From Tribonema minus (taxonomy: Eukaryota > Sar > Xanthophyceae > Tribonematales > Tribonemataceae): 64,000 bases of DNA. The translations under genes were made by a program, and so were the position numbers. The stretch is from positions 682,001 through 746,000 of the forward strand of contig JAFCMP010000468.1 in the NCBI GenBank assembly GCA_017506865.1, written 5' to 3'. The notes below the pieces were generated by a model, which was given only the letters and a program-made list of their open reading frames with translations, was not told the origin of the DNA and searched no databases. Of this stretch, positions 1-64,000 are shown one piece after another. Each line of letters begins with the position of its first letter. Position 1 is the first letter of the stretch.

Positions 1-3000
1 CGTCGGCGTGCGGCAGCCGCCAGCCCACCACGGCGTGTCCTGCGCGTGAACGAGGCAGCAGCAAACAGCAGGCCATTTAGAGCGCTGCGCACACGATTAC
101 GAAGACCACTGCGCAGGCGGCGCTGCATGTCAAGGCTCGCGTGAGCGCCTCGAGCTCCGTGCTGAGCGCTGCGCACACCATCACGTTGAGCGCTGGGCAC
201 ATGGTACCGCATCTCGGCGCTGCGCTTGTGACAGAAGTCGGGCTGTCGCGTGGCCGTCGACGGGGGCGAACCCTAACCCTACCTGTTGCTTTTACTTTCT
301 AACCCTAACCCTAAAGGGGGCGCTCTAACCCTAACCCTAAGCGGCGCCGCGACTGCGGTCGAAGACCGCCTTGAATCTCGCCGTACGAGAAGGAGGCTGC
401 GGCGTATTTGATGCACGTATGAGGCGGTCACTCCTTGCAGGAGCGTGCTGCGCCAAAAACCGATGGAACGTTGCCCGGGGACTCGCCGCTTTCTACACGT
501 TTCATCCACTTTCTAAAATGTCCACTGCTTGAGGTAGCTGCAGCCTGTGGAAAGCCCGCGGCTCTGACGCGTCGCTCCGCGCGGTGACATCGCGGCACAA
601 GGCCGGTGGCGCGCAGGCGCTGCGCCGCAGCTGGCAGCAGCGCCACGCTCACAAGTTTAGCTCAAGAAACAGGCAGCGGTTCAAGCCCGTCACTGGGAAG
701 AAAGACGGCCTTGCCTTCTGCTGCAGCAAACAACGACTTGAAAGGCGACCACATCGAACTGTAGATGGTGAACCATTTCCACCTAAATGGACCTCTACGG
801 ACTTTTTCAAATTCGTTTCCATTTGTGCAAAAGCGTGCAGGCGTTCGCAGTACTCGACGCTCTCGCTCTGCGCACCTGCTTCGTGGATGGCGGTCCGCTG
901 GCGCTCGTGCGGCTTGACCAGCTTTGATCGCTTCTCCAGGCCGTTCCACACCCTGCCGCCGCACGCAACAGTGAAGTGCAATGACATGCGTTAGCATTGC
1001 CAACAGAGACCATGGACCGCCCGGTGGGGAACGGACGTGGGGCGGGCGCAACGACAGTACGCAACGAGGTGCGTCAGCATCGCTACCAGAGGCCACGAAC
1101 CGCAAGGAGGCAAACGGGTGCGAGGAAAAGACTGCCGTCAGCATATCTCAGGCTCGTCACGCATACACTCAGATTTGAATCGGCGGGGTGTGCAGTGCGG
1201 GTCCTGTGGGGTGCAGGGGCACACACAGGTGGCCGCTGCCGGACACACGTTGGGCTCAGTGGGTGTTGCACATACTTGGAAAAAAAGAAGCATATGTATA
1301 CTTGTGAAAGTACGCACATTTGAAGTACATGTCAGGGTTCGCGCTATGCGAGGGAGGCATGCGAAGCAGGCAACAGTCGTGCGCTAGAGTAGTATGCTCC
1401 GCTTGCGCGACGGCTTATGTGTGCATGAACATCTTCGCTCTCGGGTGCGTCTAGCTTTGAAGTCGAGTGTATACTTATGAAAAGAAACAAAAGATCGTAT
1501 AGTGTAGATGTCAGAGCACGAGTCGTACGCATGCATGCACGTCTCTGCTCGGGTTATGAGTGCCTCCCGACAGAACCCGTGGCTTTGCCGCCAGTCAAGT
1601 AACAGAACCATAAAGCACGTCGGTGGTACTGTGCACGCACAAACCACATGCGACCGAACGAGGTGTGTCGGTAACACTGTGAAGTGTACATCATCATGAC
1701 AGGACTTTAGGCCCTTCCGTGCATGTTGCAGTATTGAGCGTTGCCTGTCAAAGGCATTGCTCAGGTGGCTGCGCAAACAGTCACCCTGACCACAAACCCT
1801 AACCCTGACCCTGACGGCAGCAACAGCTGCAGCACAGTCGTACCCTAACCCTTGACCCCAACCGTTACCCAACCAAACCGCGCGAGCGGTCACCCTGACC
1901 CTGACCCCTAATCCTGACCTCAACTGCAGCAAAACCTTCAGCACGGTGGTACCCTAACCCTTAGCCCTAAGCCCTAACCCTAGCAAATACCTGTCGATGG
2001 CATTGCTCAGGTCGCCGCGCGAGATGGCGTCCGACCCCGCCTTGGCGGCGGACATGGCGGCCACGTTGCACACTTGCTGCGCACGGCACACGCGCGCGGA
2101 CGATCACGGGTGTCAGCAGAATAGAGAAGCGGCACTTTGTTGCTGTTGTGTGGGTGTGTGTGTGTGTGTGTGTTGTTTCAACACTTGCGGGCGCGGGTGC
2201 CGCACGGCAGGTGCGTGAGTAGAGAGGCAGCGTTCGGTTTGGTGTGCGTTTGTGTCACTTTGTCGCTTGCGCCGGGACACGCTTGATAAGCCCGCATTGC
2301 GGTCGCACGTGCGGCATTGCAGGCGCGTGCGGTAGGCGTGCGCACGGATGTCTGCTCGCGCATGCGGAACGCCACTGCAAAGCCCGCCCACGCAGCACCA
2401 GCGACTGCGAACACCAACTTTAAGTGCTGTCACTGCCACCGACGTTAATGGGGCCTCCATAGGGAGTGAGTGCGAAGCATATGCATACATGCGCAGGCTG
2501 TGCCTCCTAATACAGTTGACGTCTGCTTCCGAAGTGGTTTGCACCGCTACGCGCAGCTGCGAAGTTGACAAAGGCACGGAGGCAAAGTCAGATCCCCCCC
2601 CCACCGCCCGCCCCCGCCAGCCGAGGCTCAATGGCTTGGGGCGGAGCGCATCTAAACGCCACGGAACAGCGCCAACACAGGACAGGCCTAGTTGTGCACC
2701 TGGCCCCATTACACAGACGTCAGAGTCTGGGGACGTGCGCAGTCGCTTCGCAGTGATTTGAGGTTGGCGAGCAGCAGAAACCTTGCCACATAACACAGAT
2801 GTCAGAGCCTGGAGACACGGGCAGTCGCTTTGCGGTGATTTGGCCAAACACAAAAGTGAGGGTAGGTAGGCACACGTACCTCGATGTCGGCGCCGACAAA
2901 GCCCGGCGTGAGTCCCGCCAGCTCCCCCGCCATGGCCCACCGCACAGCCTGTGAACAGCGTGCAGACACGGAGGGGCGTGGCCGTGAGCGGTCCGCAAGA

Positions 3001-6000
3001 GTGGTCATCACGCGCGCATTGGCGTATATCGCATCAGCGCTGCCGAAGATATCAATCAGGATGCGCCGTGCGTCGCAGGACCCTCCAGACCGCAATGAAA
3101 GGCGCAAGGACCATCCGCATGCGCCATACCACCAGTCACACACACACACACACACACACACACAGTCTCCCTACTTCTCTCTGTCATGCTCTCTTTCTCT
3201 CTGCCTCTCTCTCATCGACACATCCAGATGCACTCCCTTCACGCACGCACGCAGCAGGCGACGCTCCGCACCTCGGCGGAAGGCGCGCCGTCCGCGCGCC
3301 CCTCGGCGGCGCCCGCGGCCTCCGCCGCCGCCGCCGCCGCCGCGCGCTGCGCCGCCGCCGCGCGCCGCCGCAGCGCCAGGTGATGCATCGCCAGCGGCGC
3401 GAGCGGCGCGCCGATGAGCACCAGCGCGATACGGCCGCCGACGCGCAGCAGCTGCAGCGGCAGGCGCCGCGCGGCGGAGCGTCGCATGTTGCGGTCGGCG
3501 GCGGTAGTTGTTGAGGTTGGCATCGGCGCGGCGGCGGTTGCGGTGGTGGTGAGCGTCGCGAGCGCGTTGGCGGCGGTGAGCGCGCCGGCGGCGGCGGCGG
3601 TGGTCTGCGCACGGCGCAACGGCGCATGGGCAGGGGGGAAGGAGGGGGGGAGTTCAATTTGACGCGCGACAAGGGGAGCGCGGAGAGGGGAGGAGTCTCG
3701 AATGCGGCATCTGATGGAGGCCGCCGCTCCACAGTGAAGGTCGGCACAGAAAACCTCAAGGGGGTCTCGGCAGTAAGGGCGTGATCGAGCGCCGTCACTG
3801 AGCCGCGGGAACCCGTCTCTCGAATCAAAGTGCAGAGGGAGACAGCGCACCGCAGTGCGCGGCACAATAATCCCCTTAGGCGCGGCCCTCCCCCACTGCG
3901 TGCAGAGCGCGGCTTCCAGGGCTCCCAGCAAACTTCCGGCGTCGCCAGCAGTCATGGCGAACCGCGCTTTACCCATGGACTTTCGACGGGGGCGAACACA
4001 GTATGCGTGCTATTGACATCGCTGGTGCTCCTTACCTGGTCAGCGCCAGAGCGACTAGCGGCGGCGGCGGCAGCGGCGGCGGCGATCGCGTCACCTACAA
4101 AGCAACCGCATCGCACAAGACTACACGCAGCCTTCGTGCAGCTACCAATCGACCGCAAAGCTGCCATGCGCCGTGCGTTCAGCGTTGCGTTCTTCTGTCG
4201 CACCTGGTCAGCGCCACCGCCGGTGCCGGTGGCGGCGGCGGTGGCAGCGGCGGCGGCACTGGCGATCGCGCTGAGCGTGTCGGCGTCCGGCGTCACGCTC
4301 ATGGCGGCCAGGTAGCGCGCGAACAGCTGCTGGCGGCCGAGCCTGTCGGGCGCCTCCACCTCCACGGACGTGCCGAAGCGGCCCGAGCGCAGCAGCGCGG
4401 GGTCGAGCATGTCCTGCGCGCGCAGCGTAGTAATTCACAATAAATAAGCATAGTAATTCATGATAAATTCATCTATGAATAAGAGATGGGTAGCGAGCGG
4501 GTGGGCGGCGGCGGCGGTCGATGTGAGCAGGCACGGACGCTCGCGAAGTTGACAGATGATGTGACTTCAAGTTTGAGCACGTCCTTGCGTGCAGCGGGCG
4601 GCGGCAGCAGCAGCAGCGGTCGATGCGAGCAGGCTCAGACACCCATGAAGTTGACAGGTCATGGAACTTCAAGTTCAAACGAGCGAGCAGGCGCGGGCAG
4701 CGGCGGCAGCAGCGGTGGACGTCAGCAGGCAAGGATACTCAGACACTCGTGAAGTTGACAATGTAAATTCCAGTTCTGTAACTTCAAATTTGAAGATGTC
4801 GCGCGCGCGCGCTCGCCGCGCGGGTGGTGGCGGCGGCGACCGTGATGCTGTCGTTGGACGAGAGCCAGCCCACGGCATCTCTCTGCCATGCTGATGCCCA
4901 CACAGGGGCACTCCTGAACTGGTCAATGTTGAGTCGCATGCACCTTCAAGTTCACCACTGTTGGTGGCGGCGATGACTACGGTGCCGTTGGTGGGCAGCG
5001 ACGCGCCAGCCCTCGCATCTCTGTTGCGCATGTGCTGTCAGAGCAAGTACTCTCAGAGTATGTAACTTCAGGTTCGGAGTCGTCTGCAGCGCTCTCACCC
5101 CCCGCGGTTCGTGGTGGCGATAATCACGATGCCGTCGTTGAACAAGAACCCGCCAATCTCTGACATCTCTGTTGCGCAGGTGCTCTAGAATGTATGTAAT
5201 AACCGATAACCCCTCCATCTCTACATCTCCGTCGTGCTGATGCCCCGTTGAGCATTCATTCCTGAAACTGGTCAATGTTGAATCGCATGCAACTTCAAGT
5301 TCAACATGCTCTCACCCCGCCATTCTTGGTGGCGATGACCACGATGCCGTCGTTGGGCGAGAACCCGTCCATCTCTGACATTTCTGTTGCGCATGTGCTG
5401 TCAGAACAAGTACGTAACTTCAAGTTCAGAGTCATGGCACCACGCGCAGCGGCAGCGCTCTCACCCCGCGGTTGGTGGTGGCGATGACCACGATGCCGTC
5501 GTTAGGCGAGAACCCGTCCATCTCCGCCAGCAGCTGCGTGAGCGTGGACTCGCGGTCCAGCGCCAGGCTCTGCTGCCCGTTGGTGCCGCTGCTGCGCCGC
5601 TTGCCGACGTAGTCCAGCTGCCGTTGAGGAAGGGGGGCGAAGACGGCAGCCGCAGGCGCGCAGCGGTGATTGAGACAGGTGCAAAAGACGTGGCGGAGCG
5701 CTTCAAGGTACAGGCGTTGACATGTAGACTTGGTGCAATGTGCTGCTGCGCCGCTTGCCGACGTAGTCCAGCTGCCGTCGAGGAAGGCGGGCGTGCAAGA
5801 GTGGAGGCACGGCGATTGAGACAAGTGCAAAAGATGTGGCAGTGTGTTACTAAGTACACTAAGTGTGGAGTACGCTTTGAGCAGTGAGCGCATTGGTGCC
5901 GCTGTTGCGCCGCTTCCTGACGTAGTCCAGCTGCCGTTGAGGAAGGGGGGCGAAGACGACGGCGGCATGCGCGCAGCGGCGGTTTAGAGAAGTGCATGGT

Positions 6001-9000
6001 GACATGGCAATGTGCTACCAAGTATAGGCGTTGAGGCGTACGCGTTGAGCAATGTGCCCGTTGGTGCCGCTGCTGCACCGCTTGCCGACGTAGTCCAGCT
6101 GCCGCCGCGGAAGGAGGGCGAGCAAGAGTGGAGGCACGGCAATTGAGACAAGCGCAAAGGACATGGCAGTGTGCTGCCAAGTATACGAATTGTAGCGTAC
6201 GCTTCGAGCAGTGAGCGCGTTGGTGCCGCTGCTGCGCCGCTTCCCGACGTAGTCCAGCTGCCGTTGCGGAAGGGGGGCGAAGACGGCGGCGGCATGCGCG
6301 CAGCGGCGGATTAGAGGAGTGCATGGTGACATGGCAATGTGCTACCAAGTATAGGCGTTGAGGCGTACGCTTTGAGCAATGTGCCCGTTGGTGCCGCTGC
6401 TGCGCCGCTTGCCGGCGTAGTCCAGCTGCCGCCGCGGAAGGGGGGGCGAGGAGGACGGCGGCACGCGCGCAGCGGCGGTTTAGACAAAGGCGCGACGACA
6501 TGACGAGGTGTGCACATCTACATGTACATGTATAGATTGAAAGATGCATATGTACGAATGTATGAACGCATGCGGCTGCCATCAGAAAGGGCCGAGGGGA
6601 TACCGCGCACACGCGGCGCAGAGCGCGACGGCGCGGGGCAGCACGCGTACAGGCATACAGCAGCACGACGACGCGCGAACGCACGCAAGGCGCTTCTGAC
6701 ATGTGCCTCTGAACGAGTCTCGCACTGTGCAAGTGTCGCTACCACTGTCACGAACATGACCGCGACTGACGCAGCGCTCACCTCAACGATGAAGACGATG
6801 GCCTGCTTGCGAACGCGCACACAAGCGCTCTCTGACATATGCCTGCACGAGTCTTCGCACTATGCAATGGTCACCACAGCTCTTGCAACAGCAGCTTAGG
6901 GTTAGGATTTAGGATTTAGGGTTAGGGTGCCGTGACGCAGCCGCTCACCTCGTCAATGAAGATGATGGCCTTCTTGTGCTTGCGCGCCGCGGCGAACTGC
7001 TGCTTCACCAGCGCGACGCCCTGCCCGGCGTACATGCCGTTGTAGTCGCTGCGCAACAGCGAAAGGGGGGGAGGGGAAGGCGGTGGGGGGGGCAAGGGGT
7101 AGGTTCAAAACACCAGATGATGTCAGCGTCCAGTAAAATGAAATGCAGCCAGGTGGTCCTGGTGATCACACACGTGCTGGCAGAGGTCGAGTAGCGCAGG
7201 GCAAGGACAGCCTCAACTGATTCTAGCGCTGCCGCGAGTGGGGTAGCGGCAACTTCAATTGCAACTTCAACCAATGGCTGTGCTCGGCGAGATGGCGGCC
7301 TCTGCATAGTGCGATGGAAGCAGCAGCGGCGCACGCACGCGCGCTCCTAGTACATAGCTGGATTGCAGCAGCGGCGCTGCGGGGTGCCATCAATAACGAG
7401 GCGGGCGTGACACACAACCACTCTGGAACCAGAATGCTCTCGAGCTAGTTGCAGCTAGGTGCACGAGCGCGCCTGACGGTCCAGAGAGAGGACGACCGCA
7501 GCGACCAATCAAACAAGCAGGTTGCGCTCGTGGCTTGAGCGAGGGATGGTAAGGTGGACGACGACGGCTGTTCCATTGGCGACGCTCCGCACGAGTGCAG
7601 CGACTGCGGACACACGCACTCTTGACGTCTGCGACGCTGAAGCAGGGGAAAGCGACCACAACAATAGAAGGGGGAAACGCACCTGCCACAGGAGTACAGG
7701 AAGGGCACGCCCGCCTCGCCAGCGCAGGCCTGGGAAGCGAGGGGGGGGGGGGGGAAGCAGCGGCGACGCAGCGAATGGTGTCAGCTGTGAGAAAGGCCTG
7801 CGGGCTCATACGTGCCACACTCCGTTAGCGAAACAGACGACTGGCATCGGCGGGTGCGTCGGAGGATTGACGAGGCGTCGCTCACTGCGCACGCGTGACT
7901 ACGCACGCTCAGCAACACGAGCGGCCTAAACAGTGCTGACCATTGCAGAGGCCTTTTCGAATGCTCGGCTGACAGGAGGGAGGTGGAAGGGGGTGTCACG
8001 GTTCACAGGCAGGGTGGGACAAGATGCGGATGAAAGTCAACCGCCGTCCAGCGAGCTTCGAAAACGGGAGACTGAATGCGGTTATTGGAGTGCAGGCGCC
8101 AGCAACATCATCGTGTCCGTCATTGTAGTCATCGGCAAGTGGCTGGCATGCTGGTGGCACCTGATCCATAAGCATGAAAATCGCATCAGCTACACCGAGT
8201 CACAGTACGCAGTGGAGGCTCATGAACCGAGCAATCTGATACAGAGCACACGCTCAGGAACGAGTCCATCGATGCAGCAGATTACTTCACTGCGCCCGCA
8301 CCTTGGCCAACAGCGTCTTGCCGGTGCCGGGAGGACCGCATAGCAGTATGCCCCTGAGAGTGATGTTGGAATGCAGCGTTACACGAGGGGGGGAGGGGGG
8401 GGGGGGGGGAGGGCAGTGAGAAGAATGAAATGCGATGCTGTGCGCTTTGTTTCGGTCATGTGCTTTTTGCCTATCTGAGAGTCTTGCGCTGTCAGCGCCG
8501 CTTCCCGTGTGTGTTGACGACGTGGCTGACGAGACTCTCACATGAAGAACTCCAAAGGTATACTCTGAAGTACGGTCGTCAGTACAACAAATGTATACGA
8601 GTCCATGAACTACACCTGTACAACGCGGCACGCCTCGCCTGGATACGGTGGCGAAGGCCCTGGCGCATTGCTCCGACAACTGCAGGATGTCACCACCAGC
8701 TGGCGCAATGTGAATGGAGAACTATATATGTGTCAAGCTGCACACACACATACACGAACAGACGCATACGCTCAGGCGGCTTGCCTCACCTGAGCACGGT
8801 GGCGCCCAGCTTGGCGTACTTCTCCAGCGACTGCAGGCACTCCACCATCTGACACGAATAGGAGCCCCATAGACTCCAAAGTACTCGCTCATAAATGAAA
8901 AAAATCAAAGCATATACTTCGAAGTTCTTGTATGTAACAAGTCCAAATAACTGCATATCAGTACATACACCTGTACAACAGCGGCGCGCCTCACCTGGGG

Positions 9001-11816
9001 ACGGTTGCGCCCAGCTTGGCGTACTTCTCCGGCGACTGCAGGAAGTCCACCACCTGGCGCACCTCTTCCCTGGCCTCGTCGCAGCCGACCACGTCCTTGA
9101 ACGTCACGGGCTTCTCTGCGCGCGCGGTAGATTGCAGCGTAGCAATAGGGGGAGGGGGGGGGGGTGAGGTTGGGGACGACAGGTTGGGGACGACAGTTAC
9201 TGGCGGTTGCTGACCCCTGGCAATGACTGTGAAACCCTGGAAGTCGCCCTAGATGGACTGGCTACTACCAGGCTTCAATGGAGTGGATCAGGCTATCTTG
9301 CAGCGCTTGCTGCGTCTGCATTCATGACTTGAAAATCATGGACTGATCAAACATGAATTATGTTGGATTTCCTGCTGTCACCACGTCACAGTATTGGCTC
9401 TCGAGTTGCTCTCAGCGCGGCTCCATCAATGGCCCATCGCGGCGCCCCTCACAGCCCTGGGCACTGGAACCTGCCACTGCTGGGGCATCATGATTATTGT
9501 GCGCATGGCCCAGCCGCGTGGGGGTATGTGTACACGCGTGCCTGCGCTGCCAAGGGCGAAATGTGGCTTCAAACCATCAAACTATTATGCAAGGGCTTAA
9601 GTCAGACCCAGCGTGCTAGCACATTCTTGCTAGAGGCGCATGTTGCGAATGGGGGCGAGACATGGCAAATCCCTAGCCTGACAGACACTCCGGAGTATGC
9701 AAGTAGTAATCAGCCCCGGAGAGAGCTGCGTACACGCGCTAGGTACTCCCTGATGCTGTTCGCACAAGTCAGATTCATTGCCCCCGCAATACCACTGACC
9801 TTGCCCCCGCTTCTTGGCTTGCTGAACGCTGCCGCCGGCAATGAACCGCCGCACCAGCGCAAGGCCCGCCTGCGGAGCGCACAATCGGCAGGAGGCGAAG
9901 CGCACATGCGATTGAGTTCTCAGCGTGCGCCTCATCATGCAATATACATAGCTCGTGACCTAGAGCTCTGCGATCTTCTGATTTGTTTCCATGCGCGCAT
10001 ACACCGCATCTAGCGGATGCGAGGGTAGGCCCGCTGCGACCCCCGGTTACGTCGCGAAGCAGAACGCGACGTGCAGCAGCAGCGAGGTGCACAACAGGGC
10101 CAGAAGGTATGCGGAGCACTGACGCAATCTGCAATTGAAGTGCGCGCTGCTGCGGCGCGATGGCGCGGCGCTCAGCACATGCAAGCGCAAGGCACCTCTG
10201 GCGACTGCTACACTGGCAGTTACGCAGCATCGACTCGAGGTGTGTGCGCAGCAGTGCGACTCGCCATGCGCACACGCGCTCAGGTGGCCATGCGCGAATG
10301 GAGTGCACTGGTGACCATCAAGTAAAGTGGCGTGAGATGTTTGGCGGCCATTCGATGCCGACACGTCGGCCACGTCATGAGCTCATCTGAGCTGCGATAT
10401 GAGCTAGGGGGTGCTAGAAGGAGGGCTGCTTGTCGCGCGCTATGGCACACTGCTCGCTGTGGTGTTGCCTATCAGCCAAGAGCGCACTCCCGGCCTTCAG
10501 CGGCAGCGGTGTAAGGCATCCAGAACAATGCAATAATTGCCCAACAACGCATGAGGAGGAGCTACTTGGTGAGCTTATAAAAGCAGGGGGGGGGGGGGGG
10601 CTCCCGGCAGGCAGGTACATGAACATTCCACTGCGCAAATAGGTAGTGCATCTAGCCCTTCCTAGCAAAGCAGACTATGATTTGTGTGCAATAGCTTCTA
10701 ATTGCGTGCGTTTGGCGCTGCAAAGTGCGTGCCGCAGATGCTGCTCGCACGCACCCATGCAAGCCGGCACTCCCCGACCGCCCGTGTGAGGCTTAAAGTA
10801 ACGTTGATCGTCGTGGGATGGGGCGAAGCGGAGTGCGACAATACACACGGGCTGCCCCGTAAAAGACACGACGGAGCACTGCTACGGCGATCGGCGCGCG
10901 CACTCACCATGGACCCCACCGCCGCGAACATGTTCGTCAGCAGGACGTAAGGGACGTTCACGAGGAGCGTGTTGAGCAGGTGTCGCCGTACGAGCGCCGC
11001 CGTCACCTCCGGCGGCATCTGATAGGTGGCAAGCACTGCCTGCATCTCCACCTCCGACGCCGGCGCGGCGCTCCCGTACTGCTGCGCCGCCGCCGCCGCG
11101 CTGCCGCTGCCGCCGCCGCGCTCCTCCCGCTCCTGCTCGTCGCGCGCGGCGGCGGCCTCCGCGTCGCGCGCCGCCTGGCGCTCCTCCGCGTGCTTGACGC
11201 GCTGCAGCAGGTCGAGGACGTCCGCGCGCGTGGACTCGGGGACCCTGTCGAAGACGTACCCCTTGAGGCTGTTCCTGTCCTCGGCGGGTAGCTGGTTGAA
11301 GCCGTCCTGGACGCTCTGGGCGGCAAGCCTCAGGAGCTCGGCCTGGTTCTCGGGGCTGATGGACTGGTACGCGTCCTCCACCATCTCCAGGCTGACGGGG
11401 CCGTCATCTCCGAGCTCAGCGGCCTCGCTGTCGGCTGGTGCGGCTTCAAGCAGGTCATCGCTGGCGACGGCGCCATCTCCACTGACATTGTCGAGGCGAG
11501 AAGCACGGCTGGAGTGAGAGCGCGTGCTGCTGTGAGACTCCGTCACGTGGCCAGCGCCAGCGCCGCTGCCACCGCCAGACTTGGGAGGCACTCCATCCTC
11601 GTCATTAATGCTGTTGCCGCCGCTTGTCTCTTCCTTGATGCCATCGCCCACTGCACGGCCAAAGGCACCCACAGCGCCAGGAAAGCCACCCAGCCTGCCA
11701 CCGCCTCTGACTCTCCGCAGCAAAGCCAGCTCACGCGCTGAGGGAGCTGGCCTCGCTCCACCGGGACAGCACAAGGCGAGTCCCACTGCAACAAGTGCTA
11801 AACCTCGCTTTGTCAT
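1..11816 (-). CDS. ftsH: FtsH-family AAA metalloprotease, m-AAA-like, C-terminus beyond window
   Basis: ATP-dependent membrane zinc protease that extracts and degrades membrane proteins. Exons in transcript order are 11816-10908, 10128-10051, 9869-9800, 9115-8995, 8353-8302, 7729-7683, 7048-6949, 5617-5465, 4413-4204, 2948-2880, 2076-1991, 952-876 and 39-<1. All junctions are GT-AG and all phases agree, giving about 670 residues. Exon 1 starts with a hydrophobic signal-like leader and ends in a hydrophobic segment (NTLLVNVPYVLLTNMF). The AAA core has VTFKDVVGCDEA, Walker A GPPGTGKT (about residue 400), Walker B IIFIDE (about 457) and LDPALLRSGRF in the second region of homology. The M41 site AIHEAGH is split between the last two exons and is followed by AVVGWRLPHAD, which resembles mitochondrial AFG3/paraplegin. 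Oddities are an aberrant pore loop (MYAG) and an Ala-rich insert after the SRH. The leader suggests plastid targeting, but mitochondrial targeting is possible. The 10128-10051 exon is the least certain: it keeps phase whether used or skipped. Confidence 0.88.
270..340. repeat. Interstitial telomere-like CCCTAA repeats
   Basis: Three short clusters of CCCTAA units lie at about 270-285, 300-312 and 327-340, in the intron before the last visible FtsH exon. Confidence 0.85.
1743..1775 (-). repeat. Exon echo of FtsH exon 2076-1991 (3' edge)
   Basis: The minus strand repeats the last ~30 nt of the exon, covering LSNAIDR with a few changes. It lies inside the next intron. The copied junction reads GACAG followed by GC rather than GT. 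Confidence 0.6.
1792..1985. repeat. Degenerate telomere-like repeat block
   Basis: CCCTAA, CCCTGA and CCCTTA variants recur between the true FtsH exon 2076-1991 and its echo. Confidence 0.75.
2695..2860. repeat. Tandem duplication in an FtsH intron
   Basis: About 60 bp at 2703-2760 (cagacgtcagagtctgg...) recurs at 2795-2850 with scattered changes. Confidence 0.6.
3138..3215. repeat. CA and CT microsatellite
   Basis: A (CA)n run at about 3138-3163 is followed by a CT-rich tract to about 3215, inside an FtsH intron. Confidence 0.9.
4031..4092 (-). repeat. Exon echo of FtsH exon 4413-4204 (3' edge)
   Basis: A second copy of the Ala/Gly-coding end of the exon with its donor (CTGACCAG then GTAAGG) lies about 170 bp downstream in the following intron. 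Confidence 0.7.
4812..5400 (-). repeat. Four tandem echoes of the 3' half of FtsH exon 5617-5465
   Basis: Copies near 4812-4890, 4950-5030, 5096-5180 and 5310-5400 repeat the part coding for EMDGFSPNDGIVVIATTNRG. They share the downstream intron motif CATCTCTGTTGCGCA, so the duplicated unit spans the exon-intron border. Divergence rises with distance from the exon. Confidence 0.75.
5738..6450 (-). repeat. Five tandem echoes of the 5' edge of FtsH exon 5617-5465
   Basis: Copies near 5738-5800, 5893-5945, 6055-6115, 6217-6275 and 6382-6450, with a period of about 160 bp, repeat the acceptor side of the exon (LDYVGKRRSSGTN). They also repeat upstream intron sequence, including the CGGCAG acceptor region. 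They lie in the preceding intron. Confidence 0.8.
6766..6825 (-). repeat. Exon echo of FtsH exon 7048-6949 (3' edge)
   Basis: The copy repeats the Walker B-coding edge and the donor, GAGGTGAGC (minus strand). It is part of a larger tandem duplication, with 6690-6800 resembling 6820-6960. Confidence 0.7.
6893..6930. repeat. Interstitial TTAGGG-type repeat
   Basis: A cluster of TTAGGG and TTAGGATT variants lies about 20 bp from FtsH exon 7048-6949. Confidence 0.8.
8632..8852 (-). repeat. Two echoes of FtsH exon 9115-8995 (3' half)
   Basis: The copy at 8786-8852 keeps the coding for LEKYAKLGATV and a CAG-GTGAG donor. The copy at 8632-8710 is more diverged. Both lie in the intron after the true exon. 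Confidence 0.75.
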
Positions 11817-12585: not shown

Positions 12586-12626
<41 letters not shown>

Positions 12627-13175
12627 ACTGCTGCCGCTGCTGCTGTGAGCTGGCGCTGACAGCACCCAATGCCTGACCCTGCTGCACACGCGCCGGCACG
12701 CGCGCAGGCCTCCAAGGACGGCCCCTTCAAGGTCATCGCCAAGAACAAGCAGGCGTACCGCAACTACGAGATACTGGAGACCTTCGAGGCGGGCATCGAA
12801 CTGCTCGGCACCGAGGTGAAGAGCGCGCGCGGCGGGCGCTGCAGCATCGACGAGGGCTACGCGGCGGCGAAGCGCGGCGAGTGCGTGCTGCACGGCGTGC
12901 ACATCGCGCCGTACGCCACGAGCAACGCGTACGACCAGCACGAGGCGAAGCGGCCGCGGCGCCTGCTGCTGCACAAGCGCGAGATCAAGCGGCTCGAGGA
13001 CATGACGACGCGCGCCGGCTACACGGCCGTGCCGCTGACGCTGTACTTCAACCACAAGAATTTGTTGAAGATCAGCGTCGCGCTCGCGCGCGGCAAGAAC
13101 GAGCGCGACAAGCGCGACGACATACAGCAGCGCGAGGCCAAGCGCGACCTGCAGCGCGCCGTCAAGGCGTGGTGA
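12023..13175 (+). CDS. smpB: SmpB, SsrA (tmRNA)-binding protein, organelle-targeted
   Basis: Partner of tmRNA in rescue of stalled bacterial-type ribosomes; here it would act in the plastid. Exon 1, 12023-12187 (55 codons), begins MRWLLLLALGAADVSAY, a signal-peptide-like leader. Exon 2, 12708-13175, holds the whole SmpB domain: KNKQAYRNYEILETFEAGIE, LLGTEVKSARGG, RPRRLLLHKREI and the C-terminal DKR of the basic tail. Both exons join in phase 0 to give 210 residues. The intron uses a GC donor (AAG-GCAAGT) and a CGCGCGCAG acceptor. An in-frame ATG at 12669 would give a leaderless, unspliced product, but I prefer the spliced form because it supplies a targeting signal. Nuclear SmpB genes are known from algae whose plastids encode tmRNA. 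The domain call is firm; the exon 1 link is an inference. Confidence 0.9.
12592..12648. repeat. CTG/GCT triplet repeat in SmpB intron
   Basis: A run of GCT triplets lies about 60 bp upstream of the acceptor of SmpB exon 2. Confidence 0.85.
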
Positions 13176-14220: not shown

Positions 14221-14227
14221 TCTGCTA

Positions 14228-14733: not shown

Positions 14734-14734
14734 T

Positions 14735-16034: not shown

Positions 16035-16530
16035 AATGTTCACGATGTTGTCGACAGATTCAAATTCAGCACAAGAAGATCTGCACGGCACTTTGAAAAG
16101 CTTCAGCTGAACATGAGAACTTACTTGCGATGAACCTTCAGATGAGCTGCAGCGGCACTTGAAATCCCAAATGCAAGGGTCTGGTCACCCACAAGACTTG
16201 TGATGTGCCTTGGGACAAATCTACTAGGTTTTCAAAGGTCATGAGTGTAATGGCAGTACAGTGAATCGCTAGGCAGTACAGCAATGCAGTACTCGGTGTT
16301 CACGATATACATGACATCGTCAAAGAGATTCAATTCGTCACCCAGGTGCAGCGCACTTCGAAAAGCTTCAGCTATAGCCATGGATGACCTTCAGATGAGC
16401 TGCCGTTGTAGTGCCACTTGACAGTGCCAAACCCAAGGGCTGATCACTCACAAGACTTGTGATATGCCTTGGGACAAATCCAACTTGGTCTCCATTCAGG
16501 CCAATATGTCAGTTCGTCCATGTGTAACGG
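16035..16530. repeat. Imperfect tandem direct repeat upstream of the LINE pair
   Basis: The unit at about 16035-16260 (ttcacgat..., gaaaagcttcagct, ccttcagatgagctgc, caagacttgtgat) recurs at about 16298-16500 in the same order. The spacer motif agtacagtgaatcgctag resembles the sequence just after the LINE at 22355. Confidence 0.6.
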
Positions 16531-16539
16531 TAGTACACT

Positions 16540-16816
16540 GGGCATCGCCCTGGCGCGCTTACGCTCGGCACTGTCGGCAGCGCTCCACATGGCGTACTCT
16601 GGCCGTGTCATGACACACATGGCAGAATCCAGGGGGGGGGGGCACATGGAGGAGGACGTAGGGGAGGACCCCGAGATGCCATTTGGCGGCGGCGGCGTTT
16701 GAGTGGTTGTCGTTGCGACACTTTCAGACTGTCATACGACATGTAGATTCCTTACAGCTAGATGCCAATCATCTGGGCCTTTTCGCGCCCTGAGCGAGAA
16801 TTAATAAAAAGTACAA
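16540..16816 (+). mobile_element. 5'-truncated copy of the LINE
   Basis: These ~277 bp match 22082-22352 almost exactly, with only one or two substitutions and a 1-bp difference seen by eye. They comprise the last ~54 codons of the LINE ORF, its stop and 3' UTR to AATAAAAAGTACA. Truncation from the 5' end with an intact 3' end is typical of target-primed reverse transcription. Confidence 0.85.
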
Positions 16817-50884: not shown

Positions 50885-52345
50885 CTAATCATTGCGGAAC
50901 TTGTGGCTGTTGACGTTGACCGTGAAGCTGCCGGCCAGCTGCAGCTGCTGGCTGAAACCACGGCCCAGGTGCAGTATCTGCAGCGCCTGCGGCAGATCTG
51001 TGAGGTAAGTGCACCCACTGAGCTCCAGCTCTGTCAGCGTGGGAGGCAGAAGCCTGTCGATGCACGGCTCTGGCGCATCGTCCGACGCCCCGATCGCCCA
51101 GTACACGAGGCACTCTAAACGCGCGGGCCAGCGGGCTGGCAGCGGCGGCGCGGGGCGGGGCATGTGCCAGTACAGCGACAGCGAGCGCACGCTGTCGGGG
51201 ACGTCCACGGCGTGGTGCGTGCAGCCATCTAGCACGAGCGTCTCGAGGGTGTCCGGCAAGGGCGGAATGCGGTGCTGGTAGCGGCGCAGCGTGAGCTCTC
51301 GCAAGCGCGGCGGCAGTTCGCCCAGCCGCTCTAGCTGAAACCCCCCCACCTGTAACTCGCAAAGGCCCGCTGGCAGCACGCGTGCGGTGACACTGACATG
51401 GCCTTCGTTCTCCACTACGAGGGACTCCAGGAGAGGCGGCAGTGGGTGCTGGAATACGATGCCTGACTCAGCGTTGTCCACGAGCACAAGTAGGTGACGC
51501 AGGCTCCGCGGCAGCTCGCGGAATACCCAGTCAACAGCTTCCGAGAAGCATGTTCTCACACTCAGCGACGATAGTCCTTCGGGCAACCACGGAATGGCGA
51601 TGGCGTCACCGCCATCATCTGAGAACGTGCAGAACTCTACGTCGAGTTCCGCCACTGCAGGCGACGACAGCAGCGGAACCAGGTCTGCCCAGCACAGCGT
51701 CCAGTCCAGGAGGCCAAAGTACTCGAGGTGTGGGTGGGACAGGCCCCACAGAGCTCGCACGCACGCGCGGATGCGGATGCACTCCGAATCAAGTGCGCGC
51801 AGACCGCACAAATGGAGTGATCGTAGAGTGGGCAGCATGGCCTCAACGATCTGTGCTGCCTCTTGGAGGAAGCGCTGCACCGCGTCACCGTCGTCAATGT
51901 CGGTGAGCAGAGGGTGGGGTATGTTCGCCTCGTCATGTATTTCCCTAAATGCACACAGGTACAGCCTCTGCAGGCTCGGTGGCGTTGGGCCCAGCTCACC
52001 CCTGAAGCCGTTCAGCTCCAGCTGCACCAGAGAGGGAGGCAGACTCAGGGGACGCTGTTGCATGCCAGTGAAGTCGCCGTCCAGCGTCAAGCACCGTATG
52101 CGCCTCCTGCTGATGTCCTCCAGGAGGCGATAGAGGATGACGGATTTGGTGCTGTCGGACACCAGGTGGACCTTGGTAGGTCCGACAAGTGTCGTGCAGG
52201 ACTCTGCTGAGGCTCCAGCACTCCTTTGGCAGCAGCCTGCGCCCCGCCATGCTGGTGAACACCATCCTCACGATCTCCTGCTGACTCGAAGAGCCCGTGG
52301 GGGTGAAAACTCGGATCCTGTCCTCCTCCATGGCATGGTCCATTG
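50885..52345 (-). CDS. Leucine-rich repeat protein of the LPxxLxxLxL (FNIP-like) type, with one frame break
   Basis: Likely a scaffold or adaptor for protein binding; no catalytic domain. It reads from ATG near 52345 (MDHAMEEDRIRVF) through LLPKECWSLSRVLHDTC, then VSDSTKSVILYRLLEDISRR and about ten repeats such as LPPSLVQLELNGF, LPPRLRELTLRRY, LPDTLETLVLDGC and LPPTLTELELSGC, ending NSHKFRND. The two parts lie in different frames that meet around 52165-52200, with no room for a normal intron, so either one indel (real or assembly error) or recent decay is present. The order matches its relative at 54996-56072, which is unbroken. The N-terminal LLPKE.W part may be a degenerate F-box-like adaptor region. 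The call as an LRR-type protein is firm; the role is inferred. Confidence 0.75.
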
Positions 52346-53606: not shown

Positions 53607-54642
53607 CTACACAGAGCAATGCGCCTCAGCAGCATCCAGCCTGCGCCGCATGTACCTGATCCGAGCCCTGCATTGGTCGCTGCAAGGGCAGCCATTCGCC
53701 AGTGCCCACTCCGCCGTTGACAGCACGTCATTCCGACACGTCACAGCGGTAGAGGCGTATGTGAAAAAAAAAAGGGTATTTCGCCCGCCCCACGGGCAGC
53801 CGCGCGCGCGCAGCCACTGCAGTGTGTCGAGGCGGCCGGCCTCAACGGCTGCCGTGCACGCACTTGGGTCGAAGCGACGGCCTTCGTCCCGCAGCCACTG
53901 AAGCCCGTGCACGTGGCCTGCGCGCGCTGCCGCAGAGTACATGGTGGGGTGGAAGGGGCAGCCGCTTGCGTGTGCCCACTGTAGCTGGAGGCGGCCGTGA
54001 TAGGCCGCAGAGTAGCACGTCGAGTAGGTCCATGCGCAGCCGCGGCTCCGCGCGTACTGCAGGATGTGCAGGTGGCCGCCTGCCGCGGCGCCACTGCAGG
54101 TCTCCACGTTCCACTCGCAGCCAGCGCTGCGCGCCCACTTCAGCACCTCCAGGTGCCCTCCGCGAGCCGCCGCGGCGCATGTGCTGGAAGTCAAGTCGCA
54201 GCCGCTGGCGTGAGCCCACTGCAGCACCTCCAGGTGCCCTCCGCGCGCCGCCGCAGCGCATGTGCTCGCGTCCCAGTTGAACCCTTGGCCACCGCAGAAT
54301 CTCCCTGTGCCCGCGCTCAGCTGCAGCCTTGCACACCGCTACGTTTCCAGTCAGATCTATGCCGCGCTGCACGTCAATCGCGTGTAGATGCTGCAGCACT
54401 TCGAGAGGACCGTAAGCGGCAGCATGCTGCAGCAGAAAAATATTTTCCTTGCACCCGTATGAAATCGCCCACTGTATCAGGGGCACGGACGCAACCATGG
54501 CCCGCGCACTCGTTTTATTCCGTGATTGGGCCCGCCCCCTGTGCTGCATGGTACTGGCGTACAGCGCGCGCCACCCCGTGCTCACGGATGCAAGATGGAG
54601 GTAGTGTCCATGCGGCAAAAACTCGAAGACTCTTGTCCACAT
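53607..54642 (-). CDS. F-box/ankyrin-repeat protein with one frame break
   Basis: F-box proteins link substrates to SCF ubiquitin ligases; ankyrin repeats bind the substrate. From ATG 54642 it reads MWTRVFEFLPHGHYLHLASV, an F-box-like start, followed by short ankyrin-type repeats: LIQWAISYGC, LEVLKWARSAGCEW, LHILQYARSRGCAW, HGLQWLRDEG and LDTLQWLRARGCPW. The C-terminus is Cys/Arg-rich and ends at TGA 53607. The frame shifts near 54280 (HREILRW to GFNWDASTC), consistent with a 2-nt loss. A CCCTCAG acceptor just upstream of the ATG and an ATGAAG-GTAACG donor at about 54748 suggest a possible extra 5' exon (giving ..LLHEDMWTRV). Fragments of the same family lie at 14228-15660. Confidence 0.75.
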
Positions 54643-58126: not shown

Positions 58127-61100
58127 CTATATGCCCACCGTGGTGGACTGATTGGACTTGGCGGCGAGGTACGCCTTCCAGCCGCTCGCCTCCATCGCCT
58201 CGGCCTTGGCGAGCACTTCTTGCTCCTGCTCACCCATGAAGTCGGCCATCTGGGGATTGGGGGGGGTAGGGGGGGGTATGCACTCTTGAGCGTCTAGCAG
58301 CCACATGATTGTATAAGTTCAGCTAAAGTCTACGCTGAAGTACTGCAATGCTGCAAGGAAGTGTGCATTCCAGGGACTGCAATTGTCACCTGAATTGCCA
58401 ACTGGCACCTTGTAACCAACTACGATGAGAACATGTGGCGTCCCGTGACCCCAATGTTGACGCCACACTCCCAAGGAACATGGTGATTGAGCCATTGCTC
58501 TGCAGCCTGCTCATCCACGCCAGGCATGACAGCAGAAGCGCCCGGTCGTCGCAGCTTTCAAGCGCTCATCAGAACCTTGCCCGCCTAGCGCCGCGACTTG
58601 CACTACGACACTGGCGCCCCCCCGATTGAGGCGGGTGCATCGACAATGCATAGGCGGACAATCGCTGCGTACTGCAGGTCGTGTAGACGTGGCGATACGT
58701 GATGGAGCGTCACACATTGAAAAAATAGACAGTCCACCCCAGATTGAAGCGGACGCATCGACACCGCATGGTCGCACGACCGCTGCGCGCTGCAGGAGTC
58801 TTGTAGACGCGACGATACGAGGTGGAGCGTCACATGTTGATCACTAATTTCCAAGCACGCGCGCTCACCTGCGAGAGCAGCTTGGCGTCGGCCATGCCCA
58901 GCATGCGCACCGCCAGCAGGCCCGCGTTCATCTGAGACAGCCGACAGAAAACAACAGCAACCCATGCGCAGAGGTGTGATGAGACTTGAAATGCGAAAAG
59001 CAACAGCCGCCCGCGCGTGCAGCGTCCGCGGGAGACGTGGGGGTTGCGCAGTGTGGCCGTCTGATCTTGAGCCTCGGCAGTGCGGACGACGCAGTGCACG
59101 GGCGCCTTTGTGCTGGTCACAGCACTCACTCGCAACTGGCTGCATGTTACGAGCAACAATCTTCAATTGAGTATGAGTGCTGAGAGCCGGCGCGGGTAGT
59201 GCCTGCCAGTGAATCGTCAATCGAGCGAGGCAAGAAGCAAGTCTGCATAGGCGGCAGGGACCAAGCGGGGTCTAGACGCACTGCCGTCGCCGCAGATAGA
59301 GGACGCCGTCCTGACTGAGGCCCCTCTGCAAGCTATAGAGTTAGCTGCAGTCCCATGCTGGAGGTTTTTGAAATAATGGGTAGACCGGGCACACTCACCG
59401 CAATGCCGATGGCGACCGTCGCAACGGCGGCATCTGCACACACGACGCTGCGCTGCCGTGCTCGCGCCGCTGAGCACTGAGGCTCACTCACTGACTCACT
59501 AGCTCACTCACTCCATGAGTCACACTCACCGCGTTGCCGATGGCGACCGTCGCGACCGGCACGCCGCGCGGCATCTGCACAATGCTGTGCAGCGAGTCCA
59601 CGCCGCTGAGCGTGGACGTCTTGACGGGCACGCCGATCACGGGCAGCGGCGTCATGGCGGCGCACATGCCCGGCAGGTGCGCGGCGCCGCCGGCGCCGGC
59701 GATGATGACGCGCAGACCGCGCGCCGCCGCCGTCTGCAATGATGCGACGCAGCATCGCGGCAGCGCGTGCGAGGTTGAGAGCCGCACTTGTGGTGGGGGG
59801 GGGGGGGGGCAAAGTGAGTGCGCTTGCGACGTCGCGCGACGTCGATCTCCATGGCCGTCACAATGCTCATGGCGGTGAGTGTTGTGCCGCTACAACAGGT
59901 GCCGGGCAGCGATGAGCGCAGCGCACCCGCCGCCACCGTCTGCGATGATGCGGCGCAGCAGCGACGCGGCAGCGCGCGCGAGGTTGAGAGGCGCGCGTGT
60001 GGTTGGGAGGGTGGGGGTGAAAGTGAGTGCGCTTGCGACATCGCTCGCTGAGACCGTTGCCATGCTTACCCAGGCCTCATGTGCGTTGGTGAGGGTTAGG
60101 GTTGCCCCTTGCTTAACCCCAGGGCCTGGTGCCGTACGTGCAAGGTGGCGTTGCGAGCTTGGCGACTATCTGCAAGTTGTCGGCAGCGCATGCGTTTACC
60201 CCACGCACTGTGCTTCGATTCACTATGAGGGCAGACTAGGCGGTGTGCAGCTGCCCCAGGTGCTCTCCTCCGCAATCCACCGCGACGGCACGTGGCGACA
60301 GAGGCGCGTCACCATACGTACTGCTGTTCCGCAGCTGCCCCGCGCGCGTACTATCCGCCCAATCGGACGCGGCGCGTGAACGGAGAGGCGGGCTCGCTTC
60401 GCAGCGCGCGCTTCGCGGCCTCCGCCTCAGCGCTAAGTACCTGGGAATAGGTGCCGAGCCGCGCTCACATAGGAGAGTCACACGGTGCGTAGCGTGCAGC
60501 GGCTCCACGTGCTCTCCACAAGGCATCTCAGTGGTACACGGCAACAGTGGTGCGTCGCGGCATGACGCACGACAGTCCTCTGCGCTCGGTACCTGGGAGT
60601 AGGTGACGAGGAGCGTGCGCGTGCGGCGCTGCTTCGAGAGATGTCCACATTCGAGAAACCTGTGGGGAGAAACCTGTGGGCACGTTAAGATGGCCGTGCT
60701 GGCACGTGTGGCCATCCCATGAACTCCTTCGCGGGGGCGGCTCACTCGGTGCGCAGCGCGCAGCTGCTGCATCGCGACAGTGCATGGCGACAGCGTTGCA
60801 TCACAGCATGAGACGTTCAAGTCCAGCGTGTCCTTGAAGTCCTCTGCACTTGGGTACCTGGGAGTAGGTGACGAGCCGCGCGGGCGTGCGGTGCGCGCTG
60901 ACGATGGTGAGCTCGTACGGCACGCCGAACCGCTCCAGCGCGTCCGCCGCGGCCTTCATCGTAGGCAGGTCAGAGTCGCTGCGCAAGAAGCGAGGGGCAC
61001 CGGGGGGGGGAATGCGAGTGAGCGGACAATACAAGGGGGAGGATAGAGGGGGGGGGGGCGGCGGGGGGTGTGTGTGTGGCAAGTGACACAAAGATCACAA

Positions 61101-64000
61101 TTAGCTCGTATGGCACGCCGAAGCACTCCAGCGCGTCCGCCGCAGCCTTCATCGTCGGCAGGTCGGAGTCGCTGCGCGAGGAGCAAAGGGCGGGGAATGT
61201 GGGGGGCATTGCTCGGAGATGAGCTTGGAAATTACCTTGCGTCGAAGTGTTTTGTGTGGGCAAGGATGCACGTAATTGGATGTCGGGCGTTCACACAAGG
61301 GGGGGGGGGGGCGTTTAGACATGGGGGGATGTTGAGACATAAGCTCACAATCAGGTTGTGTTGAAGTGTTCCGTGCTGGCGAGGGTGTGCATCATCGCAT
61401 GCCGGCTCGGAGGCGGCAGCGGCGCCGTTGACCGGTGGGAACAGGGCCTGAGGGGGAACGGAGCGAGGGCTAGAGGGGGGGGCAGCGGCGCTCCACACAG
61501 AGCTGGCGCATGTTCAGCGCACGCTCACAGAGCGTGTGTGCTGTCATTTGCTTCAGTATGCACGTCTTGCCCTCTCTCAGGAGCAGGACGCGTGCGGCTT
61601 GCGCCGTGCCAGCTGTGAGGGTTAGGGTTAAAGCACCACGGGTTGGTCAAGTGTTAGGGTTAGGGTTAGGGCTGCGACGCCCAGCAGCGTGCAGTTCTCA
61701 AACCCTACGTGCTCCCCGAGCCCTAGTTCAACACGACACAGACATGCCCTCCGTCGTGTCGTCACAGAATGGTCATAGCAATTGTCACAGCGGACGCGCT
61801 GTGTCCTGGCGCCCATAGCACGCGATGCTCGCAAGCATCGCGTGACGACGCATGCCGCAGTCCAGATGAGGGTTAGGGTTAGGACATCAGTCAAGAATGA
61901 TCGTTGAACACGAAACACGCAGCAGACACTGGATATGCTCGCGAGGCAGGCCCCTGTGCATTGTGAGGAGCACCTTGACGGACTCACGTTGAAGTTATTG
62001 TGTACAAGGGCGCTCTCTGGCATGGGAGCGGATGCGAACTGCCTATCAAGGGCGGCGTGGTACACATACATACTGTATGCGGCAGCTACTGTCATTGCGC
62101 ATGTACTGACATGCGAGCGGCTCATAGCGCTGACCTTCCCATGATGATGCCCACCAGCGCCGTGGAGTGCTGCTGCGGCGCGCCGTCCTGCAGCAGGCCG
62201 TACGGCGCAACGCGCGCGCGTAGTTCCTCCATCGTGTCCGCGCAGAACGTAATGTGCGCCATCTGCGGGGCATCACGAAAAGCGAGTGGCATGCATCACA
62301 TCGCTCTTCCATTTCGTGTTGTGAAGATGCGGGACATGCCGGCTTTTTGAGAGGCTATGCCGTGTCCGCGCGGGACGTGAAATGCGCCATCTGCGGCAGC
62401 GGCACCAAAGCGATGTGTCACGCGGTGAGCACGTCGCGATGGCGTTGCGCATGGCGCGCCAGTTGTGTGAACAGTGGAACAGAGCGAGTGTCAGGCACGC
62501 CGCCTGCTGACACACTAGCTGCGAAAGCAGAACCAGAACCTCCGCCATGTTTGCGCAGAACGAGATGTGCGCCATCTGCGGAGCGGCACGCGCTTCACCC
62601 TCATGCATTGCTTTCTCTTCCGACAGAGTGTAAAGTAGCGACGAGCACCGCGCATGCGTCGCGGACTCACCTTGCGGCCCTTGCGCGCCTCCGCCTTGCC
62701 GTACCAGTGGAGCGCCGCGCCGGGGATCGCCAGCGCCTTGCTCATGAGCGCCTTGGTCTCCGCCATGTCGCCGTTGCCGAGGACGTTGAGCATCATGCTG
62801 CGGGGGCGAACGGCGCGGCGGCAAGCGGCGGCGGCGGCGCGTGCGGAGGTGAAGTTTGTGAGCGGCTGGGCGTTCAGAGAGCACGCATGCAGCTGCGAGG
62901 CGCGCAGCTGCGCAGCAGCAGCATATGCAGCGGCGCGGCAGCAGCGAACGCAGCGGTGCGGCAGCGGCGCAGAGCAGCGCGTGCCGCGCGCACGACGCGA
63001 CGCGGCTCATCGTGGCCCCGTGCGACGCGCGCACGATTACGGGAGCAGGCGCTTACGCCTCGGACGCCCGAGCCAACCGCGAGGAGCCAGCGTGCCAGCA
63101 GGCTGAACAGAGCCTGGTTGGCAGCGCCGCCTCCGCCGGAGGAGACTCGAGCATCCGAGGCGCCGTGGATAGCGTCCTGTAGCGTGACGGGGCAAGTGTC
63201 CATTGTTTGCTGCATGCGCGCCACAGCGGCTTCAATGCTAGTTTGGCGCGCACCCCACTCGTCGCTCGCCTTCGCCCCCTCCGCTCGCGCTGCTGCCGCC
63301 TCGGTGAGCGCGCTGCGGCAAATGGCGCTCGAGTTTGCGATGCGACGGTGTCAATAGGAGGCCCTCAGGCGCGGCGGGAGGCGCCCCGAGGCACGGCCAC
63401 CCACGGCCGCAGACTTCAATGCGGCATCCAACAGCCAGCGTAACTTATACTTTCTTGTGGTCAAGACCTTCCATGAGCTCGCTGGCTGCACGAGCATTGC
63501 TACATGCGTGGCGGACCAGAGGGCGGCGGACGTGGCCAACAAGCTCCACAGGCCCGTAGACACCGTCGCAACCTTGAGCGCCAACTGCCACAGCGCCCTC
63601 ATCGAGGCGGCAGCAGCGCGAGCGGAGGGGGCGAAGGCGAGCGACAAGTGGGGTGCGCGCCCAACGAGTAGCGCTGAAACCGCTGTGCCCCCCCTGCAAG
63701 CGCGCGCCGCGATACTATGACGCGCTCTCCGCAGTGGTGCGCGAGCAGGTGGTGTGCGTGTCAGCACCGATCGACGCTCATACCTATGTACCACGCGCCC
63801 GCGCGCAGCCTCGTGCCGCCGAGCGGCAGCCGAGGATCGCGCGCAGCTGCATACACGTCACAGCCCGTCGCGACAGCTCAATACACACCTCTACATACAT
63901 GCATATATACACACATGCGTACCTCGCGCCCACGCGCAGCCGCGTGCCGCCGAGCGGCAGCCCTAGGATCGCGCGCAGGTGGTTCTCAAACTGGTCGCAC
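58127..64000 (-). CDS. purKE: Phosphoribosylaminoimidazole carboxylase (PurK-PurE fusion), N-terminus beyond window
   Basis: Purine synthesis enzyme of the ADE2 type: PurK makes N5-CAIR from AIR with ATP and bicarbonate, and PurE rearranges it to CAIR. Exons in transcript order: >64000-63923, 62797-62671, 62262-62135, 60978-60858, 59733-59530, 58931-58869 and 58249-58127 (TAG). All are GT-AG and all phases match. The PurK C-terminus shows [25 protein letters not shown] and [20 protein letters not shown] short linker leads to PurE, with [65 protein letters not shown] and [17 protein letters not shown]. The fusion order is that of plants and fungi. The PurE signature is complete, including the SDSD, HRT and [10 protein letters not shown] elements of the active site. 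Echoes of several exon edges crowd the introns. Confidence 0.94.
59395..59445 (-). repeat. Echo of PurKE exon 59733-59530 (3' edge)
   Basis: It repeats the end coding VPVATVAIG with its donor side, about 130 bp downstream in the next intron. Confidence 0.7.
59925..59990 (-). repeat. Echo of the acceptor side of PurKE exon 59733-59530
   Basis: It repeats cgtctgc.atgatgcg.cgcagca and gcgaggttgagag as at 59731-59782, covering the last intron bases and the exon edge. Confidence 0.75.
60230..60620 (-). repeat. Echoes of PurKE exon 60978-60858 (3' edge) and downstream intron
   Basis: gtacctgggaataggtg..gagccgcgc at 60437 and gtacctgggagtaggtgacgag at 60590 copy the donor and VTYSQ-coding end. The neighbouring caccgcgacggcacgtggcgacag motif recurs near 60280, 60530 and 60770, giving a unit of roughly 150-250 bp. 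Confidence 0.75.
61085..61185 (-). repeat. Echo of the 5' half of PurKE exon 60978-60858
   Basis: It repeats coding for [23 protein letters not shown] with its CGCAG acceptor and, further upstream, poly-C. The coding is intact over about 28 codons. Confidence 0.85.
61615..61885. repeat. Three short TTAGGG clusters in a PurKE intron
   Basis: Clusters at 61617-61628, 61652-61671 and 61868-61882. Confidence 0.85.
62345..62600 (-). repeat. Two echoes of the acceptor side of PurKE exon 62262-62135
   Basis: About 62365-62405 and 62545-62590 repeat the segment coding MAHITFCAD with the CCGCAG acceptor (read on the minus strand), plus flanking gcg.caccaa or gcggcacgc. Confidence 0.75.
63232..63681. 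repeat. Inverted repeat in a PurKE intron
   Basis: 63232-63355 and 63557-63681 are reverse complements over about 120 bp with high identity (shared core ggcggcagcagcgcgagcgg read from the right arm), separated by about 200 bp. The arms differ by an indel not divisible by three. Confidence 0.75.
63790..63850 (-). repeat. Echo of PurKE exon >64000-63923 (3' edge)
   Basis: It repeats gcgccc.cgcgcagcc.cgtgccgccgagcggcagcc, coding [12 protein letters not shown], about 130 bp downstream of the original. Confidence 0.75.

Follow-up and report, generated by a model that had tools for sequence, protein, structure and literature searches.

How does an intron come to hold copies of the edge of its own exon? 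The question is raised by four genes (FtsH, kinesin-13, AK6 and PurKE) in a window of 64,000 nt, that is, the whole stretch of DNA analysed, which is eukaryotic sequence with 60% G+C. A sequence-only reading had noticed short copies of exon edges, together with splice sites, in the neighbouring introns, and the sample consists of these four genes in one window, picked by that reading for showing such copies, here called echoes. The echoes are probably what remains of local DNA duplications, direct and often tandem, that straddled exon-intron junctions and later decayed neutrally as non-coding DNA.

Exon borders were placed by protein continuity and the GT-AG splice consensus, and all 19 introns between mapped exons are GT-AG. 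The AAA/FtsH exons have PDB matches, the best of them to Cdc48/p97, with FtsH chains matched too. The kinesin-13 exons match KIF2C, the PurKE exons match PurE and PurK, and the AK6 exons, on the plus strand, were likewise identified by PDB match. Two exons delimited earlier, FtsH 5617-5465 and kinesin 40801-40635, agree exactly with the mapped borders.

With 50-nt exon edges as queries and a threshold higher than any of the 520 scores obtained against introns of other genes, the own adjacent intron holds a copy of the edge in 15 of 38 cases (10/19 donors, 5/19 acceptors). No match was found in the other introns of the same gene (0/164), in introns of the other three genes (0/520), or in the intron at the exon's opposite end (0/30). 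The copies reported in adjacent introns are real and confined there. BLAST with a low-complexity filter recovers echoes at 14 of 38 edges (10 donors, 4 acceptors). Exon middles used as queries match in 2 of 12 cases, both of them 121-bp exons in which the echo extends to the centre or close to it, and no copy of a whole exon was found in introns of the four genes. Echoes have the same orientation as the source edge; inverted edges were seen in the own intron once among 38, against 15 direct. Adding by eye the echoes of the kinesin exon 4 acceptor and exon 7 donor brings the count to 17 of 39 borders examined; donor and acceptor borders, typed by hand, do not differ significantly (11/20 vs 6/20, p=.20). 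The 30 copies that were aligned comprise 20 on the donor side and 10 on the acceptor side, and their alignments bear out that the copies straddle splice sites. That echoes fill the introns is too strong a statement, as 6 of the 19 introns have no exon-edge echo.

In the FtsH gene, on the minus strand, the 3' edge of exon A (8995-9115) is echoed twice, at about 8776-8851 and 8611-8707, with donor sites near 8789 and 8638 and exon identity of.89 and.79. The farther copy (8611-8707), included among the 30 aligned, has GC in place of GT, and its score of 29 merely ties the best null score. The 3' edge of exon D (7048-6949) has one echo at 6766-6850, with a donor site near 6781. Exon E (5617-5465) is echoed at both edges, as had been claimed. 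Its 5'-edge array of five echoes (5574-6486) runs into the true acceptor at 5617, has echo acceptor sites near 6425, 6257, 6098, 5930 and 5771, and is built of a unit of about 160 bp within a 327-bp higher-order repeat. The 3'-edge array (4750-5464) contains four echoes with donor sites near 5315, 5098, 4955 and 4816, the last with GC replacing GT.

The kinesin gene is also on the minus strand. The 3' edge of exon K1, which ends at 43081, has two weak echoes within 42760-43014, with sites near 42937 and 42783, the farther of which lacks GT. Two echoes of the 3' edge of K3 (41710-41609) lie in 41205-41608, with sites near 41414 and 41298, and this array has telomere-like repeats inside it. K4 (40801-40635) is another exon correctly reported as echoed at both edges: the acceptor-edge echo at 40930-41083 keeps AG and has a deletion in its exon part, which was read by eye and falls below the automatic threshold, and four echoes of the 3' edge occupy 39840-40546, with donors near 40474, 40344, 40180 and 39853. 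The 3'-edge echo of K7 (37859-37784), at 37675-37728 and 102 bp off, was read by eye, the automatic alignment row having been left out as a self-match.

In AK6, on the plus strand, exon 2 (46537-46788) is the third exon for which the earlier claim of two echoed edges holds. The 5'-edge echo at 46205-46422 has an acceptor site near 46343, and the 3'-edge echo at 46887-46996 has a donor near 46973, with identity of 95% in the exon part and.73 in the intron part. In PurKE, on the minus strand, P1 (ending at 63923) has a 3'-edge echo at 63788-63862, 131 bp off, and the 5' edge of P3 (62262-62135) has two echoes within 62360-62621, with acceptors near 62575 and 62390. P4 and P5 are likewise echoed at both edges. 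For P4 (60978-60858) there is a 5'-edge echo at 61103-61229, with an acceptor site near 61171, and two 3'-edge echoes within 60400-60643, with donors near 60592 and 60440; for P5 (59733-59530), a 5'-edge echo at 59911-60047 with an acceptor site near 59939, and a 3'-edge echo at 59390-59473 with a donor site near 59398. Three further duplications, all on the minus strand, contain intron sequence only and are not exon echoes: a tandem duplication in FtsH intron E-F (4505-4776, unit of about 100 bp), a duplication in kinesin intron K6-K7 (38050-38412, 277 bp apart), and a tandem duplication of about 118 bp in PurKE intron P6-P7 (58619-58840).

The spacing of neighbouring copies has a median of 159.5 bp (interquartile range 143-187, range 102-327, n=32, with two values, 102 for K7 and 166 for the K4 acceptor, entered by hand). 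The description of the copies as tandem is clear only for some arrays. For FtsH D and E, for kinesin K4 and for AK6 exon 2, the stretch that aligns is roughly as long as the distance between copies; in many other arrays the intron half is no longer alignable, and several echoes are set apart by an unalignable spacer. The copy nearest the exon is the best preserved in five of the eight multi-copy arrays, so that the rule noted earlier holds less strongly than stated. Introns with an echo are longer than those without (mean 953 bp, n=13, vs 616 bp, n=6; one-sided p=0.011), as the suggested role in intron growth would have it, but this evidence is partly circular because the copies themselves add length.

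Direct orientation, adjacency, a border-spanning unit and re-duplication make up the anatomy of a local replication or repair error. The favoured explanation begins with local direct duplications, with copies about 100-330 bp apart, that straddled an exon-intron junction, as the alignments show, and that would have been born of a copying or repair error at the DNA level. Splicing presumably still removes the copies despite the echoes, and they would be tolerated for that reason. Once born, the copies decay as non-coding DNA, the exon half remaining recognisable for longer because only one of its two copies drifts freely. Some arrays were enlarged once more by re-duplication, with higher-order repeats of 327 bp and 294 bp. 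Borders may be favoured sites of error, perhaps because they break or stall more frequently; alternatively, the units may match replication or repair tracts of nucleosome size that begin in the exon, and the spacing of about 160 bp recalls tracts of this kind. Slippage or repair at exon borders, which the sequence-only reading had offered, is possible. Most likely, the copies are neutral remnants whose presence makes introns longer.

Among known systems, exon duplication can give mutually exclusive exons, a case that shares with the echoes tandem duplication with splice sites; echoes, in contrast, are non-coding and comprise no whole-exon copy. Zhuo et al. (2007) reportedly dealt with the origin of introns from tandem arrays and with human alternatively spliced introns, a system that resembles the echoes in having intronic tandem arrays linked to splice sites. 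Introner elements, described for instance in Amoebophrya (PMC7789003), share repeated intron sequence with echoes. Introners and other shared mobile elements were rejected as a source, as none of 520 comparisons placed an exon edge in the introns of another gene, a test limited to the four genes; whole introns were compared only in the self-search of the window. Among the matches listed in a literature search lying mostly outside subscription journals, no title or opening of an abstract describes pervasive exon-edge copies in introns.

It had also been stated that no named mechanism fits, and this does not stand, as tandem genomic duplication (PMC3443670) and repair-mediated proximal duplication (PMC2671141) are both named in the sources cited. 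Tandem genomic duplication is treated in the review as an accepted route of intron gain (PMC3443670), and Drosophila cases are given in PMC2891723. Tandem genomic duplication resembles the echoes in being a short tandem doubling of a stretch that bears a splice site and is tolerated via splicing. The adjacency and direct orientation typical of such duplication are found here (15/38 edges in the own intron, 1/38 inverted). However, in that route duplication of an exonic AGGT makes a new intron, whereas echoes enlarge existing introns, and each echo places exon sequence, with a splice site of its own, in the intron that borders the source edge. The 10 acceptor-side copies keep AG and lie 128-808 bp upstream of their own acceptor, not directly behind the donor, which does not agree with a duplication that creates an intron. 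The elementary step of local duplication is already known, and what is unusual is its density and its focus on exon-intron borders.

Of the alternatives, the one that survives best is repair-mediated duplication, in which a break within the intron is mended by synthesis-dependent strand annealing (SDSA) with DNA from close by, often an exon edge, as the template, and which leaves a spaced copy and not a head-to-tail one. We regard it as possible and on the whole doubtful. The size and distance of the echoes fit SDSA copies, with breakpoints that have decayed, and several echoes have the unalignable spacer that such copying would leave. In the human study of 2009 (PMC2671141), the proximal group of repair-mediated duplications lies within 5 kb and has a mean length of 162 bp and a median of 147 bp, the size range seen here; the human copies are, like echoes, proximal and short, sometimes with exon parts and splice sites, and two duplicated exons showed no coding constraint, as for echoes. 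Yet a partial exon with intron was the source in just 4 of 824 human cases (PMC2671141), so that exon edges are rare donors in man, whereas the copies described here are direct, repeated and located at borders. The same study left out copies at most 50 bp from their source as tandem, and describes an inverted case. In the four genes the 15 direct edges against one inverted among 38, the full tandem units in several arrays and the higher-order repeats all argue against this route.

Telomere-like repeats, which are attributed to break-repair insertions in primates and rodents (PMC7215372), were counted in favour both of this route and of the favoured explanation. The whole window contains 37 overlapping matches, against 0.04 expected, and short interstitial (CCCTAA)n blocks are found, for example, at 6896-6928, 37424-37453, 41227-41571 and 61616-61884. 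Among 12 intronic blocks, four start at most 40 nt after a donor and none lies near an acceptor (P=.002, in a post hoc test in which two introns without a mapped end were set to 700 bp). Some of the blocks themselves sit in duplicated units.

Local duplication favoured at borders has also to be weighed against plain neutral tandem duplication, uniform across the genome, with border copies just easier to see by virtue of their conserved exon half, which we consider rather improbable. Intron-only duplications do occur, and 22 of the 30 copies are better preserved in their exon half (8 in their intron half), both as expected from this reading. We sorted by hand the arrays of at least 40 bits from a self-comparison of introns, leaving weaker self-matches uncounted, and found 16 border-linked arrays (kinesin exon 4 acceptor included, exon 7 donor excluded) against 3 intron-only ones. 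A simulation of uniform duplication that includes the exon/intron asymmetry gives 27-32% of detected arrays spanning a border, about 30% against the 16 of 19 seen; even at an expected share of 35%, the binomial p is 1.5e-5. The simulation is a simple one, with uniform event age, unit lengths taken from the observed spacings, a nearly fixed exon, a comparable detection threshold, and whole-exon and within-exon events removed.

The second line of evidence leaves exon sequence aside. Of the 38 windows made up of an intron's first or last 50 nt, 10 have a duplicate within that intron, compared with 17 of 277 other windows (7/110 interior ones outside arrays and 10/167 elsewhere; Fisher p=4e-4), with a low-complexity filter applied and array regions excluded from the interior set. 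In an unfiltered scan that kept the arrays, a duplicate within the same intron turns up for 154 of 524 interior intron windows and for only 3 of 19 windows covering the 50 nt behind donors, no more than farther in, an observation that favours uniform duplication; outside the genes the count is 28 of 236. The filtered excess therefore rests on removing the echo arrays from the interior. The exon-edge excess is clear; the one on the intron side hinges on classing echo arrays as border events, a choice that we think is right. On the small scale of this window, the excess over other segments that the earlier reading wanted tested genome-wide is present both in the hand-sorted arrays and in the filtered windows, and is absent from the unfiltered scan on the intron side beside donors.

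The exon share of the duplicated unit, measured on the 13 nearest copies with known exon length, one for each of 13 borders, has a mean of 40% and reaches 62% at most (PurKE P5 acceptor). Under uniform placement these values have P=.002 and.013, and the units therefore seem to start near the middle of the exon. Uniform duplication fits the border focus poorly. Pure ascertainment via exon conservation was judged insufficient on the strength of the simulation and of the windows restricted to introns, with the unfiltered scan dissenting.

The decay of the copies bears on a further alternative, that echoes are functional as spare or decoy splice sites, or as poison exons, under selection, which we find very improbable. 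In the exon parts of the 30 aligned copies, the mismatch rate is.122,.129 and.150 for codon positions one, two and three (chi-square p=.34), and only 3 of 71 indels are divisible by three; with even codon-position mismatches and broken frames, the copies decay as non-coding DNA. The coding or alternative-exon reading was rejected on the same two observations, and the new alternative exons proposed at first find no support in the sequence.

The two halves of an echo differ in preservation. Exon identity 4-20 nt off the border is.865 for donors and.888 for acceptors, and intron identity 7-40 nt off the border is.68-.79. The exon half is expected to show about half the divergence of the intron half, because the exon is constrained and its copy is not. 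Substitutions alone amount to 18.3% in the intron half and 13.4% in the exon half, a ratio of about 1.4:1, nearer 2:1 when gaps are counted. Identity is 93-98% in the exon part and.63-.88 in the intron part for the kinesin K4 copies, for three acceptor copies of FtsH E and for the donor copy of AK6 exon 2, and in most of these the asymmetry exceeds neutral decay. Such copies may reflect gene conversion from the exon, or copying of little beyond the exon edge. They count against the favoured explanation, as do the modest ratio on substitutions and the eight copies with a better preserved intron half.

Splice sites are the part of the echo that speaks for function. GT or AG is retained in 27 of 30 copies, and 58 of 60 splice-dinucleotide cells agree with the source (one of the 58 across a gap only), compared with about.87 per site nearby, for a nominal p=.01. 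In the 12 nt around the acceptor, 118 of 120 cells match, half of the acceptor copies coming from one array. These levels hint at selection on the echo sites, a signal that is weak. Against function stand the three donor echoes without GT, donor positions +3 to +6 with an identity of.725, which is intron-level decay, the non-independence of copies within one array, and the lack of codon bias together with the broken frames. An assembly artefact of collapsed or stuttered repeats is of negligible probability, as the exon parts of copies differ by 2-35% with many indels, and spacing differs from array to array.

Beyond the favoured explanation of border-straddling local duplication lies a stronger version, speculative and in our judgement unlikely, in which exon-intron borders, donors above all, would be true hot spots of DNA breaks or fork errors in this lineage. 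Nucleosome-sized tracts running from mid-exon into the intron would be repeatedly duplicated, telomere repeats would be dropped beside donors, and introns would grow by layers of exon edge with spare splice sites. The questions touched are those of intron growth and of the origin of spare splice sites. If border-straddling duplication is as frequent as in these four unrelated genes, one genome would preserve a datable history of growing introns and offer a natural experiment on whether splice junctions are mutation hot spots, and gene finders that model exons by sequence similarity would be misled.

Several other features of the window lie outside the four genes. Scans of viral contigs gave no relatives of the sequence, and neither a tRNA nor an Rfam family at gathering score was found in the window. 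Local duplications are present at 1771-1987, 16082-16480 and 30619-30948 (109, 265 and 188 bp apart), with no exon recognised there by eye. At 24625-29532, seven copies of an element of about 250-275 bp recur at intervals of 0.5-1.9 kb as parts of larger local duplications of up to about 1.5 kb, and no clear gene is seen. A retroelement-like unit at 16540-22353 has a single frame of 1786 aa that includes a reverse transcriptase domain, and is flanked by 276-bp direct repeats, 99% identical, the downstream one overlapping the end of the frame. The frame at 12660-13172 on the plus strand encodes SmpB (SsrA-binding protein), with a signal-peptide-like frame seen by eye upstream, and is perhaps a nuclear gene for a plastid-targeted SmpB. 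The presence of SmpB suggests that the DNA comes from an alga whose plastid is of the red lineage. Long frames lie at 50888-52267, with FNIP/LRR repeats, and at 53610-54338, with ankyrin repeats, the latter overlapping an 81-bp tandem repeat.
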